Source: Candidatus Thiodiazotropha sp. CDECU1 (GTDB taxonomy: Bacteria > Pseudomonadota > Gammaproteobacteria > Chromatiales > Chromatiaceae). From it: a stretch of DNA of 64,000 bases. A program made the translations under genes and the position numbers. A model generated the notes under the pieces. That model did no database searches, had not been told where the DNA came from, and saw only the letters and a program-made list of their open reading frames with translations. Below, piece by piece: positions 6,658 to 39,156 of this stretch (the stretch's first letter is position 1; every line of letters begins with the position of its first letter). The stretch is from assembly GCF_963455295.1 (NCBI RefSeq), contig NZ_OY734020.1, positions 124,001 through 188,000 on the forward strand. The letters run 5' to 3'.

Positions 6658-6685
6658 TATCCTGCCAGGGGGCAGCCTGAGAATC

Positions 6686-6702
6686 AGTGTTAACAGGCCC
6701 TA
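6686..6702. repeat. Solo terminus of the 35306/37924 palindromic element family
   Basis: The 17 bases AGTGTTAACAGGCCCTA are identical to the right end of the complete elements at 35574 and 38246. No matching left end or internal hairpin is nearby, so this is a remnant or a truncated copy. It lies in the 114-base gap between the LEA-type lipoprotein gene and the next small gene. Confidence 0.6.
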
Positions 6703-8590: not shown

Positions 8591-8613
8591 TAGGGCCTGT
8601 TAACAGGCCTTAG
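8591..8613. repeat. Collapsed palindromic element terminus
   Basis: TAGGGCCTGTTAACAGGCCT followed by TAG joins a left end (TAGGGCCTGTTAACA) and a right end of the 35306/37924 element family through their shared palindrome TGTTAACA, with one mismatch. All internal sequence is missing, which suggests precise deletion or a minimal form. Just downstream, 8661-8673 contains the small palindrome GTAGACCGTCTAC. Confidence 0.6.
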
Positions 8614-35305: not shown

Positions 35306-35574
35306 TAGGGCCTGTTAACACTAATCCAATGCACACTGTTGTGCCTGAAAAAGCGCCAATCAAGGCGCGAGGAGAGAAGTTTGGTCACTCCAAATGAACG
35401 ACGAGCAACGCTGAGTGGCGCTTTTTCAGGCGCAACCCGAAGGGCTGGGGCTGTTTTTGCGCCCAGCGGCGTTATCATTCGCTCATGTAGCCGGGCTACA
35501 CCACGCTCATTCTGCCTTGCTGGGCGCAAAAACAGTCCCAGCAGAGTGCATTGGATTAGTGTTAACAGGCCCTA
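35306..35574. repeat. Palindromic MITE-like element, copy A (269 bp)
   Basis: The gap 35246-35602 is largely this element. Ends are a perfect 29-bp inverted repeat beginning TAGGGCCTGTTAACACTAAT; outward TA dinucleotides suit insertion at TA. Inside are two long hairpins. The left one pairs 35343-35358 with 35416-35431 (16 bp, no mismatch) and carries an apical TTTGG/CCAAA hairpin. The right one pairs 35444-35467 with 35519-35542 (24 bp, one mismatch) and carries an apical TGTAGC/GCTACA hairpin. Together the element could fold as a three-arm cruciform. There is no transposase; apparent open frames across it are shadows. Confidence 0.85.
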
Positions 35575-35602
35575 AAGGCAGACAGATCGGAGAATCGCAA
35601 GG

Positions 35603-37039
35603 GTGTGGTATCGATTTATTGGCCTCTGTCTACTGGGTTTTGCAATCTGCTCCCAGGGAGTGGCACAGGTCTCACGTTACAATCCCGCTGAAAAGGGATG
35701 GCTGGCAGATCATCAGTATCTAAGGGCGGGTGTGGTTCCGATGACCCCCCCTATCCTCTATGTTGAAAGGTCCCAATCCAAGGGTTTGGTACCCGATTAC
35801 CTGAGGGCGCTGGCCGATAAACTGGGTCTGCAGCTGCAGATACAACATTTCCCGGATCAGGAGGCGTTGCTGCTGGCTTTGCGTGAGGGTGTTGTGGATA
35901 TGATCGGTGCGGCTGTTCAGACCCACCTCTCCCCCCCAGACCTCCACTTCACCCGTCCCTATCTGAACCTTCCCGCGGCCCTCTTCACCACCGACAGGAT
36001 TGCCGATAAAGAGCTGACCGCGCTGGACGGCCTAGAGATATCGGTTGTCACCGGAAGTATCTGGGAAGAGGGGATACCCCACCTCCTGCCCTCCCTGAAC
36101 GTCATGGCCTTCAACGATCTGGGTCAGGCACTGCAAGCGGTTATCGCTGACCGGGCCCAGGCCTACCTTGGCGATGCCGCAAGCGTTAACCATCTGCTCT
36201 CAACCACGGAGAATTATGCTGGAATGAAAGAGATGATGCGGCTTGATATGACGGTGGACGTAGCGGTAGCGACCCTTTACACGGAACCGGTGCTGCAGAG
36301 TCTGCTGCAAAAAGGCCTGGACAGGCTCAGTAGAGAGGATATGCATGATATCTGGTATCACTGGCAGGATGTTGAATCTCCAGTGAAGCAGGGAGGCGAT
36401 GTTGTCACCCACATTTCATGGGGGCTGTTTCTGTTGCTATGGAGCCTGCTGCTGGCTTGGGTGGTGAGGCGGCATTCACAAAAGGCATTGGCTCATCATC
36501 GGAGTAAGACAAAGCGATCCATCAAGCGCCTGCGTCGTAGAGAGAATCTGCTGAAACAGAAGTTGATGAGTCTGAAACACAAGACCAAGCGCTATCGTTA
36601 TCGTGCCAAGTCTTTACGTCAGCAGGTGGACTTTCTGAGTGAGGTGCTGCCCTCATGCGCGTGGAGTTGGGATCCGACCGATGAGAACTGCCAATGGGAT
36701 GATGAGATGTATCTCATGGCAGGACAGGAGAGAGGGGAATTTACACCAGTTCCGGCGTCAATCCTGAATCTGGTCCATGAGCAGGACAGGAAACACGTGG
36801 CCCAGTTATTTGACCACGACAACCGGGATGAAATACGCATCACCTATCGGCTTCAACTGCCCGCTGGAGGGGAGAGAAGAGTGCTTGACTACAGTCACTA
36901 CGTCCCCGGTGAATGTGAAGGTTCAGGCAAACGGGTGGGTATCTGTTGGGATGTGGATAACTATTTCAGGTCCGGTGGGGATCTGCTGCTCATTTCCAGC
37001 AAGATAGACCCCTCCATAGCGGTTGACTCGACCGATTAG
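35603..37039 (+). CDS. Periplasmic-binding-domain sensor with PAS-like end and no transmitter
   Basis: A 478-residue protein: signal-like N-terminus, a PBP2/SBP_bac_3 solute-binding domain (about 30-260; LRAGVVPMTPPILYV, LVPDYLRALADKLGLQLQ), one transmembrane helix about 272-290, an Arg/Lys-rich coiled coil (about 295-345), then a PAS-like domain (about 350-455). It stops without HisKA, HATPase, GGDEF or EAL domains. The frame starts at GTG 35603; the domain order matches hybrid sensor kinases truncated after the PAS domain. It is bracketed by the two palindromic elements. Confidence 0.75.
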   Translation: MWYRFIGLCLLGFAICSQGVAQVSRYNPAEKGWLADHQYLRAGVVPMTPPILYVERSQSKGLVPDYLRALADKLGLQLQIQHFPDQEALLLALREGVVDMIGAAVQTHLSPPDLHFTRPYLNLPAALFTTDRIADKELTALDGLEISVVTGSIWEEGIPHLLPSLNVMAFNDLGQALQAVIADRAQAYLGDAASVNHLLSTTENYAGMKEMMRLDMTVDVAVATLYTEPVLQSLLQKGLDRLSREDMHDIWYHWQDVESPVKQGGDVVTHISWGLFLLLWSLLLAWVVRRHSQKALAHHRSKTKRSIKRLRRRENLLKQKLMSLKHKTKRYRYRAKSLRQQVDFLSEVLPSCAWSWDPTDENCQWDDEMYLMAGQERGEFTPVPASILNLVHEQDRKHVAQLFDHDNRDEIRITYRLQLPAGGERRVLDYSHYVPGECEGSGKRVGICWDVDNYFRSGGDLLLISSKIDPSIAVDSTD

Positions 37040-37264
37040 TTAACAGTGTGAATTGTAAACCTGTAGGGTTATATGGCCTGAGCTGGCCGCCCCTGGGTTA
37101 GAATGCATGTTGCAAACAAGGTATTCGTGATTAAAATACTTTATATTCAATAACTTATATATTATTAATTGAGTTTTTGTATAGCCCGTCATTAAATTAA
37201 CATAAGCACCTTTCTGTGTTTGTATTGTCACAATAACAGGTTGGAATTAGGGGAATAGGGAACC

Positions 37265-37894
37265 ATGATCAGACTATCAGCCACACTTCTTCTTATATTT
37301 CTTTTTACCTTCAGTCTCTCCGCCGCAGCCAAGGTCACACCTTCAGAGCGGATCGAAGAGACTGTAAACCAGGTGTTGAAGGTGCTGAAGGATTCCTCCT
37401 TGGGCAGGCAGGATCGTCGCGACCAGGTGAAAGAGATCGTACGCAAGCGTTTCGATTATGAATCCATGTCCCAGGTCATCCTGGCAGCCAATTGGCGCAA
37501 GGCCTCGCAACCTCAGCGTGAGCAGTTCATCACCCTGTTTCGGGAGCTGTTGGAGCAGACCTACTTCTCAGCCATTGACACCTATAGCGATCAGTCAGTA
37601 CGTATGGGCAGGGAGCGCACCAAAGGCAAGTTGGCAAATGTGCAGACCTTCATCGTGGCCGCAAACAAGGAGCTTGCGGTCAGCTACAAGATGAGGTTTC
37701 GCAATGATGACTGGTACGCCTATGATGTTGCGGTGGACGGGGTGAGTCTGGTGAGCAACTATCGCACCTCTTTCCGGAATCTGGTAAAGAGCAAGGGCAT
37801 GGAGGGTCTGCTGGCGGAACTGGCGCAAAAGGTTGCATCTCTCAAGGCCAAGAACAAGAATAGTGAGCAGGCCCCCGCCACAGCTGAAAAGTAG
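37265..37894 (+). CDS. MlaC/Ttg2D-family ABC transporter auxiliary protein
   Basis: A 209-residue exported protein: signal peptide about 1-21 (cleavage after SAA), then a helix-rich MlaC fold with VRKRFDYESMSQVILAANWRKASQPQREQFITLFRELLEQTYFSAIDTY and DGVSLVSNYRTSFRNLVKSKGMEGLLAELAQK. MlaC carries phospholipids between the inner- and outer-membrane Mla complexes. No mlaA, B, D, E or F is adjacent, so it is an orphan copy or a paralogue. An AT-rich 225-base gap with likely promoter precedes it. Confidence 0.88.
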   Translation: MIRLSATLLLIFLFTFSLSAAAKVTPSERIEETVNQVLKVLKDSSLGRQDRRDQVKEIVRKRFDYESMSQVILAANWRKASQPQREQFITLFRELLEQTYFSAIDTYSDQSVRMGRERTKGKLANVQTFIVAANKELAVSYKMRFRNDDWYAYDVAVDGVSLVSNYRTSFRNLVKSKGMEGLLAELAQKVASLKAKNKNSEQAPATAEK

Positions 37895-38050
37895 GCCTGT
37901 CAGAGATTTGAGGAAGCAAGAATTAGGGCCTGTTAACACTAATCCAATGCACACTGTTGTGCCTGAAAAAGCGCCAATCAAGGCGCGAGGAGAGAAGTTT
38001 GGTCACTCCAAATGAACGACGAGCAACGCTGAGTGGCGCTTTTTCAGGCG

Positions 38051-38077
38051 CACCCCAAGGGCACTTCCTGCGGGGCG
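38051..38077. repeat. 27-bp module in copy B (first)
   Basis: An insertion of 27 bases (core CCCCAAGGGCACTTCCTGCG) between the two internal arms, at a GCGC site. Absent from copy A. Nearly identical, with two mismatches over 29 aligned bases, to the module at 38195. The module itself can form a weak hairpin (GCGCACCCC with GGGGCGC). Confidence 0.8.
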
Positions 38078-38194
38078 CAACCCGAAGGGCTGGGGCTGTT
38101 TTTGCGCCCAGCGGCGTTATCATTCGCTCATGTAGCCGGGCTACACCACGCTCATTCTGCCTTGCTGGGCGCAAAAACAGTCCCAGCAGAGTGC

Positions 38195-38221
38195 ACCCCA
38201 AGGGCACTTCCTTCAGGGCGC
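38195..38221. repeat. 27-bp module in copy B (second)
   Basis: The second insertion (core CCCCAAGGGCACTTCCTTCA), between the right arm and the terminal inverted repeat. Absent from copy A and near-identical to the module at 38051. Confidence 0.8.
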
Positions 38222-38322
38222 ATTGGATTAGTGTTAACAGGCCCTAAGCAGAGTTTTTTGATTCAACCACCGTTCCAACAATAAATCAGTGTCTTAGTCA
38301 GGATCACTGGAGGAGAGCACCT

Positions 38323-39156
38323 ATGTACAACAACAAAGCACTAGCCCTGACCTTCGCGTTACTGTTATCGCTCAGTCCTGGGCTGTGGGCGGAAGAGGGG
38401 GAGAGCCAAGGCCAGGAAACAGCATCCCCAGGGGAGGAAACAGCCAGCACCCAGGATGTTGCTATGCAAACGGCAGCCGTTGAGGCCGAGGTATCCACCG
38501 AGTCCCCAGAATCACCAGCAGCGGAAACCGGGACAGGGGAGGCCGAAACTGCCGCAATGGCTAGTGAGGCCTCTGATGCAGAGTCCCTCTCGAGAGATGC
38601 TATGAGAGAACACTGGAAGGCCCGTGAGGAGCAGTATCAAGCCTTGAGAGAACGGGCCGAAGAGGCAGGTGTGATGCTGCCGGAGCGCCCCCCCTGGCGT
38701 TCGGAGATGGGGCAGATGATGCGCCCGAGCATGGAAGAGCGCATGGCCCATCGTAAAAAGATGATGGCCATGTCTGAAGAGGAGCGGGAGGCCTTTCGCC
38801 AGCAGCGCCATGAGGAGATGCGTGCCCGCGCCGAGGAGATGGGTATGGAGATGCCTGAAACCCCACCCTGGGTAGCCCGACAAAAGGCGATGCAAGAAGA
38901 GTGGGCCAAGCATCAGAAGGTGATCGAGGGAATGAGCGACGAAGAGCGTGCGGCTTGTCATGCCATGCACCGGCGCCATATGGGCATGCGGCACAGCGGT
39001 GGAATGGGACAGGGTTGTGGCATGGGCCATCAGGGTTGTGCCATGCGTCAGGGTGATTCTGCACCGAGAATGACCCCTGGGTATGGCCAAGGCTATGGTT
39101 ATGGGCCAGGGCCGGTACCTTACCCACCACAAAACTTTTGGGACCCTAACCAGTAG
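38323..39156 (+). CDS. Secreted Met/Glu/His-rich protein with duplicated module
   Basis: A 277-residue exported protein, signal peptide 1-23 (cleavage after LWA). An Ala/Glu/Ser-rich low-complexity stretch (24-90) precedes a helical region with two related units (RERAEEAGVMLPERPPW at 109-125 and RARAEEMGMEMPETPPW at 167-183), each followed by Met/Glu/Arg-rich helix. The C-terminus has Cys212, Cys232, Cys239, many Met/His/Gly (GMRHSGGMGQGCGMGHQGC) and a Gly/Tyr/Pro tail. Such Met/His/Cys content suggests metal binding, perhaps copper, but this is inference. GGAGGAGA gives a strong ribosome site. Confidence 0.7.
   Translation: MYNNKALALTFALLLSLSPGLWAEEGESQGQETASPGEETASTQDVAMQTAAVEAEVSTESPESPAAETGTGEAETAAMASEASDAESLSRDAMREHWKAREEQYQALRERAEEAGVMLPERPPWRSEMGQMMRPSMEERMAHRKKMMAMSEEEREAFRQQRHEEMRARAEEMGMEMPETPPWVARQKAMQEEWAKHQKVIEGMSDEERAACHAMHRRHMGMRHSGGMGQGCGMGHQGCAMRQGDSAPRMTPGYGQGYGYGPGPVPYPPQNFWDPNQ

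Follow-up and report, generated by a model that had tools for sequence, protein, structure and literature searches.

We describe here a repeated element of Candidatus Thiodiazotropha sp. CDECU1, a clam symbiont, two copies of which (A and B) lie in direct orientation in a stretch of 64,000 nucleotides (contig NZ_OY734020.1 of assembly GCF_963455295.1, positions 124,001 to 188,000), referred to below as the window. The genome (G000) comprises 4.46 Mb in a single contig. The element is probably a non-autonomous transposon, that is, a miniature inverted-repeat transposable element (MITE), with ends of the IS5-family type and a conserved interior of folded DNA, and an IS5-family transposase is its likely mover. 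Other genomes and loci are cited by our own numbers (G and L).

Copy A (35306..35574, + strand) was 269 bp long, the flanking TA at each end included. Its left (35306..35334, +) and right (35546..35574, -) terminal inverted repeats form the 5' and 3' sides of the outer stem, which encloses arm 1 (35338..35436, +; stem 35338-35362 / 35412-35436), a mini-hairpin CCC-GAA-GGG (35436..35444, +) and arm 2 (35444..35542, +; stem 35444-35467 / 35519-35542). The conserved apex of arm 1 (about 35361-35412) carries an apical hairpin of TTTGG (from 35380) and CCAAA (to 35394), that of arm 2 one of GTAG (from 35487) and CTAC (to 35499), and arm 2 is related to arm 1 in inverted orientation. Copy B (37924..38246, +; 323 bp) contains the element of copy A and two additional units of about 27 bp (repeat D4), absent from the earlier note, with terminal inverted repeats at 37924..37950 (+) and 38220..38246 (-). 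The first unit (38050..38079, +), about 27 bp net but appearing as a 30-bp repeat, was located between the arms and the second (38193..38222, +) between arm 2 and the right end. The copies were 98-100% identical across two long shared blocks. The 27-base terminus was perfect at all four ends, arm 1 had stems of 23-25 nt at 91-92% and arm 2 stems of 24 nt at 96%, and both apical hairpins were present in both copies. An earlier note on this DNA had described the element from the letters alone; its coordinates were exact to the base, and its perfect repeats of 27-29 bp, two long internal hairpins and apical hairpins were all confirmed.

The element has moved recently, inserting at TA. When the 36 own copies of G000 were compared with the same-species genome G182, 15 sites were empty, four held short remnants (L006, L020, L023 and L035), four held copies of other length (L007, L009, L030 and L031) and 13 were ambiguous, indel-bearing or without a usable match. 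Four of the 15 empty-site comparisons had flank differences of 10-13%, and the flanks overall differed at 93 of 2084 bases. The earlier note had taken the element for a mobile one with TA ends and had proposed a search for TA duplication at empty sites; mobility was borne out, and the empty allele showed a single TA at 10 of the 15 sites and TG or CA at the other five, which could mean that the element carries its own TA or that the target arose earlier by mutation. These five sites were L302, L303, L305, L345 and L346, with flanks at least 96% identical at three of them; the L004 site read CA or CT in five related genomes. The site of copy B was empty in G182 with junction flanks identical at 142 of 142 bases, and the copy was not found in the mlaC downstream region of the seven relatives read. 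For copy A, joined flanks lacking the element matched across the junction in G020, G010, G004 and G003; no match to this site was listed in G182. C-TA-G surrounded 15 of the 36 own copies, and a C before or a G after the TA was found at 33.

The ends point to a candidate mover. Relative G007 carries an IS5-family element (NF033580 above cut-off; PF13340 and PF13586) that starts C-TA-GGGCCTGTTAACA, in CTAG, with 15 bases identical to the MITE end, namely the first 15 nt of the left repeat of copy A (TAGGGCCTGTTAACA). Among 29 further IS5 loci of the family (L241-L269), seven had an end within 3 mismatches (e.g. TAGGGTCTGTTCACA and TAGGGTGTGTTGACA), four of them lying in CTAG. We take the subgroup to be the one named IS427, with TA as its target.

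Several observations weigh against this reading. The G007 element has only the outer 15 bases in common with ours, its other end agrees at 12-13 of 15, and 22 of the 29 further loci had no matching end. PF13340 was matched in one of 14 genus genomes (G007) in one profile search and in none of six in another, G000 among them, so that a matching transposase was not encountered in the same genome; the genus genomes without PF13340 all carry the family ends. In G031, which belongs to another genus and has 21 ends, one PF13340 locus was found, with ends that did not match within 3 mismatches. A search of G000 with PF01609 found an element of 1.74 kb in six copies (L213-L218), presumably of IS1182 type, that encodes a 520-aa transposase; this candidate mover was rejected because its ends differ (TAACGAGCCTGTCGAAAAACC in five of six copies). 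The five TG or CA sites, where the filled site reads TA...TA, count on the same side. The rarity of IS5 in the genus lowers our confidence in this reading; the mover may have been lost, may come and go, or may be of another type.

The 22-base end had 109 matches at up to 3 mismatches in G000 and none for the reversed control, so the terminus search suggested in the earlier note yielded many copies; at least 36 two-ended copies longer than 100 bp (102-349 bp) were present among the loci read. The family end occurred in 21 of 21 genus genomes and in 4 of 35 other genomes of the same survey. Among 106 two-ended elements from G000 and its relatives, 45 were exactly 269 bp long. Other clusters at 295-298, 322-323 and 349 bp were consistent with one, two and three 27-bp units, and the remaining lengths were 22-231, 268 or 270 and 284-294 bp, with one composite of 463 bp. 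Autonomous long copies were sought as end pairs 341-3500 bp apart in 212 loci. Only three pairs exceeded 1 kb (L102, L108 and L114), and these were rejected, the right end belonging in each to a complete 269-bp element; in L114, the only interval whose open reading frames (ORFs) were read, these resembled host genes. The element has the MITE features tested, namely terminal inverted repeats, small size and no internal transposase gene, a target-site duplication evident from empty sites and an end in common with an autonomous element (that of G007). The earlier note had argued for selection on structure "rather than a simple MITE"; the contrast with a MITE did not hold, whereas the interior did prove to be conserved far beyond the genus.

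Beside mlaC, a sequence closely resembling the 27-bp unit (CACCCCAAGGGCA..) was also seen outside any element, with GCGC nearby (L229:1263, L231 and L232). In the fetched loci the unit occurred in 58 distinct contexts, 56 of them close to element marks; of the two exceptions, one resembles a degenerate element. It is possible that the unit is a small repeat in its own right.

The predicted fold of copy A consisted of a 29-pair outer stem, two arms of about 24 pairs and the CCC-GAA-GGG hairpin between them. Its stability gave z = -16.0 when folded as RNA and z = -14.8 as DNA, with 0 of 200 shuffles as stable in either case, and copy B gave z = -14.1 as RNA (0 of 100 shuffles), far beyond chance, which bears out the structure described in the earlier note. 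The predicted fold was very stable on both strands. The whole element is an imperfect palindrome, with 65-67% identity to the reverse strand of full-length copies, and therefore its arms look like inverted copies of one motif. In the arm-1 apex CGAG stands opposite CGAG, which presumably allows a tandem G-A pair geometry.

Compensatory change, which the earlier note had proposed to look for in the arms, was scored at 93 pairs in sets of different breadth. Among 25 elements, mostly of the genus, both sides had changed in 26 of the 93 pairs (9.1 when shuffled; 1-3 in slid controls), with 69 doubly changed cells compared to 16.2 when shuffled. A class-wide alignment (A3) was built from 22 chosen elements, comprising 18 of the 31 class and plasmid loci (L377-L407) together with L142, L001, L161 and L084. 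In A3 the pairs changed on both sides numbered 70 of 93, compared to 39.6 when shuffled and 33-43 in slid controls, 343 cells were doubly changed (95.8 shuffled, 67-89 slid) and 89.8% of cells were paired (71.1% shuffled), these values for pairing, like the lengths in A3, coming from chosen rows, since 13 loci (L383, L384, L386-L390, L393, L396, L398, L399, L401 and L405) were left out for truncation, insertion, a flipped arm or near-duplication. Class-wide, pairing was weak towards the bases of the arms: two pairs at the base of arm 2 failed in about half of the cells, and some pairs at that of arm 1 were also weak. Conservation was unequal in the 22 elements, mean identity being highest in the outer 17 bases (0.84) and the arm-1 apex (0.83), intermediate in the arm-2 apex (0.66) and the arm stems (0.62 and 0.59), and lowest in the inner outer-stem (0.41).

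The interior was not confined to the genus. With a Thiohalobacter copy as the query at 1e-6, 39 of 369 sampled genomes of the class were matched (34 of 271 genera), 37 of them outside the genus and in 30 families; 39 is a lower bound, because only two candidates were scored per genome. Full-length matches were found in 14 of the 37 genomes outside the genus and partial ones in the others, and 14 of the 21 full-length places outside the genus spanned exactly 269 bp. Plasmid records of Azotobacter chroococcum (two, one read = 269 bp) and Halomonas (268 bp) also carried the element, and one of Ca. Magnetococcus massalia carried a 206-bp form with one long arm. Phages and E. coli gave no match at 1e-5 with the single query L395. 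Several end types were combined with one interior, including GGGCCTGTTAACACT, GGGCCTGTTCACACT, GGG(C/T)CTGTTGACGTTT, GGGGGTGTTAACAATTA and AGAGCCTGTCTGTGAATAAATC, some of which resemble ends of the IS5 loci surveyed. The three-armed fold thus recurs in distant bacteria despite greatly changed arm sequences, and it seems that the folded shape itself is kept. In one class member (L398:1501-1771) arm 2 had the orientation of arm 1, as though it had been turned over across its own stem.

Changes at single loci were also evident in the same-species comparison. One G182 remnant was a 22-bp palindrome at a site that has a 323-bp copy in G000, the product expected from slippage between the TGTTAACA present at both ends. 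Another was 33 bp long, compared to 163 bp in G000, with AGGC at the join, and the remaining two were stubs. Two same-site copies at the L007 locus (L007/L152) were identical save for one exact 27-bp insertion, and those at the L031 locus differed by one exact 143-bp deletion, arm 2 being gone between two units. Where a site has both a short and a long form, the join lies at short repeats. Copies lacking the internal arms were to count against the earlier note's proposal; copies without one or both arms do exist, yet several loci show short and long forms at the same site, a pattern that fits deletion products. In the window, a 22-bp palindrome (TAGGGCCTGTTAACAGGCCTTA, 8591..8612), comparable to the 22-bp remnant above, is read as the deletion scar of a former copy, and a solo family end lies at 6681..6702 (-; the + strand reads GAATCAGTGTTAACAGGCCCTA). 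At the L033, L021 and L028 sites, G000 has 10-11 extra bases immediately to the left of the element TA compared to the empty allele. Three outgroup loci of L033 (L324-L326) also lack most of them, and the L021 copy seems to lie inside another palindromic repeat family, because its flank matches many places in G006 and G019 (around query positions 2690-2819).

The most serious rival, which we regard as unlikely though well worth weighing, is that of an ordinary MITE with a passive interior, in which hairpin template switching during replication alone keeps the stems complementary, so that covariation arises without function. That repair by template switching could maintain the arms in this way is itself a point against a functional fold, as is the scarcity of intermediates at some pairs of the 97-element set (31 of whose rows come from G000, with at least one over-long row, L003 of 358 bp): pair 27/243 had CG 66 and GC 26 with no CC or GG, and 148/228 had GC 79 and AT 16 with no GT or AC. 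The joining of short and long forms at short repeats points the same way, as does L108, whose arm-2 apex is the reverse complement of its own arm-1 apex (one of 97 elements, in one motif test). This copying of arm 1 and the double changes without intermediates indicate template-directed repair. However, intermediates were numerous elsewhere (26/244, GT 24; 28/242, AC 12 and GT 9; 145/231, GT 37), and template switching fails to explain why the apices (0.83 and 0.66) are more conserved than the inner outer-stem (0.41) in the same 22 elements or why 14 of the 21 full-length places outside the genus have exactly 269 bp. Since the apices are more conserved than the stems and the length recurs, selection is needed in addition.

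An improbable rival is a structured RNA carried on a MITE, with the folded transcript of a single strand as the active form, affecting for instance mRNA stability, an effect reported for ERIC. If selection acted on such a transcript, G-U should be tolerated on its strand and A-C should not. When only pairs at least 60% Watson-Crick were counted, G-U was not favoured over A-C on either strand, with 39 G-U and 47 A-C cells class-wide (sign test p 1.0) and 105 and 157 in the 97-element set (p 0.19). The count kindest to RNA was the looser filter on A3, with 75 G-U and 50 A-C cells, although the two occupied 28 positions each; over all 93 pairs the 97-element set had 293 and 276 cells at 38 and 44 positions. 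The two intermediates being about equally common, pairing looks to be kept at the DNA level. By comparison, 12 G-U and 0 A-C were counted in nine tRNAs of the fetched loci, a weak control as the program draws the brackets. The stable fold predicted for both strands would suit an RNA, as would the location of 30 of 34 copies outside ORFs (by a simple ORF rule), many close to gene ends. Orientation relative to tandem genes showed no clear bias, however (11 same, 7 opposite), and if the arms are inverted copies of one motif, a single strand reads only one of them in sense. No Rfam family reached the gathering score in the window; copy A gave three matches far below it, the best to a miRNA family (E 0.0018).

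Of the 22 class-wide elements all but one keep CCCNNNGGG, and in 17 of these 21 the loop between the arms was GNA or the complementary TNC. In the triloop count of the 97-element set, a CAA class (20) derives from the 27-bp unit. TNC in that setting corresponds to the UNCG loop of RNA. Since GNA and UNCG are the same loop read from opposite strands, we rejected the triloop as proof of DNA folding, which again tells against our reading; GNA loops give very stable DNA mini-hairpins according to the accessible part of PMC4686876.

Least probable of all is the earlier note's proposal of an IS630/Tc1-type insertion, which was not upheld: TA duplication fits that superfamily too, but no PF13358 (DDE_3) match was found in the genome and the 15 terminal bases are those of the relative's IS5-family end in CTAG.

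For the non-autonomous element with IS5-type ends, we envisage that an IS5-type transposase would recognise the outer 13-17 bases and insert the element at TA, in most cases where a C precedes or a G follows, duplicating the TA. The interior would comprise the outer stem from the terminal repeats, a pair of long arms whose conserved apices are inverted relative to each other and the small hairpin between them, and it could fold on either strand, either as a cruciform or while single-stranded in replication. The fold might be needed for the spread of the element, joining its two ends or binding a host or transposase factor being the leading guesses. The stems would be kept complementary partly by template-directed repair, one side being copied from the other, with selection acting beside repair. 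From the patterns above we infer the identity of the mover, a function at the DNA level and the role of the arms. A broader interpretation, which we put forward only tentatively and would not ourselves bet on, is a mobile DNA family, class-wide and perhaps phylum-wide, selected for the three-dimensional shape of its DNA. Such a structure-recognised folded-DNA transposon would have a scaffold of about 269 bp with a branched junction on either strand, homologous arm apices with possible tandem G-A mismatches, and several end types, the interior defining the family.

Among known systems, IS5-family elements of the two-frame type (NF033580, PF13340/PF13586) resemble the element in the outer 15 bases, the CTAG target and the TA on both sides. 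They differ in having a transposase in two frames and no three-arm interior, whereas the element here has no gene. REP/REPIN sequences with RAYT transposases are likewise inverted hairpin pairs spread between genes. A RAYT/REP origin was rejected: the genome has three Y1 (PF01797) loci, which showed no element end or unit pattern within 3 mismatches, and insertion here leaves TA on both sides. ERIC/IRU of enterobacteria are likewise short, intergenic, highly base-paired and present in many copies with TA ends (parts of PMC2229807 and PMC10969869), but they have another sequence, and a 7-bp repeat is listed for them in the accessible part of PMC2229807. In the same part of that source, bacterial repeats other than CIR are described as a paired-end stem without arms. 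CIR of Caulobacter and its relatives have two long inverted-repeat arms and a linker, as here, but are about 110 bp long, with GANTC at a loop and no terminal inverted repeat listed there (PMC2229807). RUP of Streptococcus pneumoniae, a 107-bp repeat, is thought to be moved in trans by an insertion sequence with similar ends, at TA; its proposed mover, however, is IS630-Spn1, and conserved interior arms are not described in that part of the source (PMC2229807). For Thiomargarita MITEs, the part of PMC4853749 available gives 10-bp direct repeats or TATAG ends.

Copy A is flanked by a divergent Sua5/YrdC-type gene on one side and an SBP/PAS gene on the other, and copy B by mlaC (37265-37894) and an ORF at 38323. 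Seven copies abut the stop codon of a neighbour, and gaps of -3 suggest that the element's own TAG end would keep the neighbour's stop.

No description of this repeat family was found in the literature searched, which covered few subscription journals, so that an older account may exist. The 13-base end sequence did not occur there, six short stretches of the element occurred only in papers on osteoclasts or bone, judging by titles and the start of abstracts, and nothing was found there on Thiodiazotropha together with MITE. Broader MITE searches returned mostly papers on arachnid mites and one MITE review.

Bacterial MITEs are generally viewed as relics consisting of filler between shared ends. 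In the present element, conservation of the interior extends across bacterial families, with strong covariation and no strand bias. This makes the element well suited to testing whether a mobile element can contain folded DNA as a selected, functional component, and to distinguishing selection on pairing from self-templated repair. Comparison of copies at the same locus reveals the ways in which palindromic elements change and the 27-bp unit comes and goes. Furthermore, the element adds a repeat, undescribed in the literature searched, to many proteobacterial genomes.

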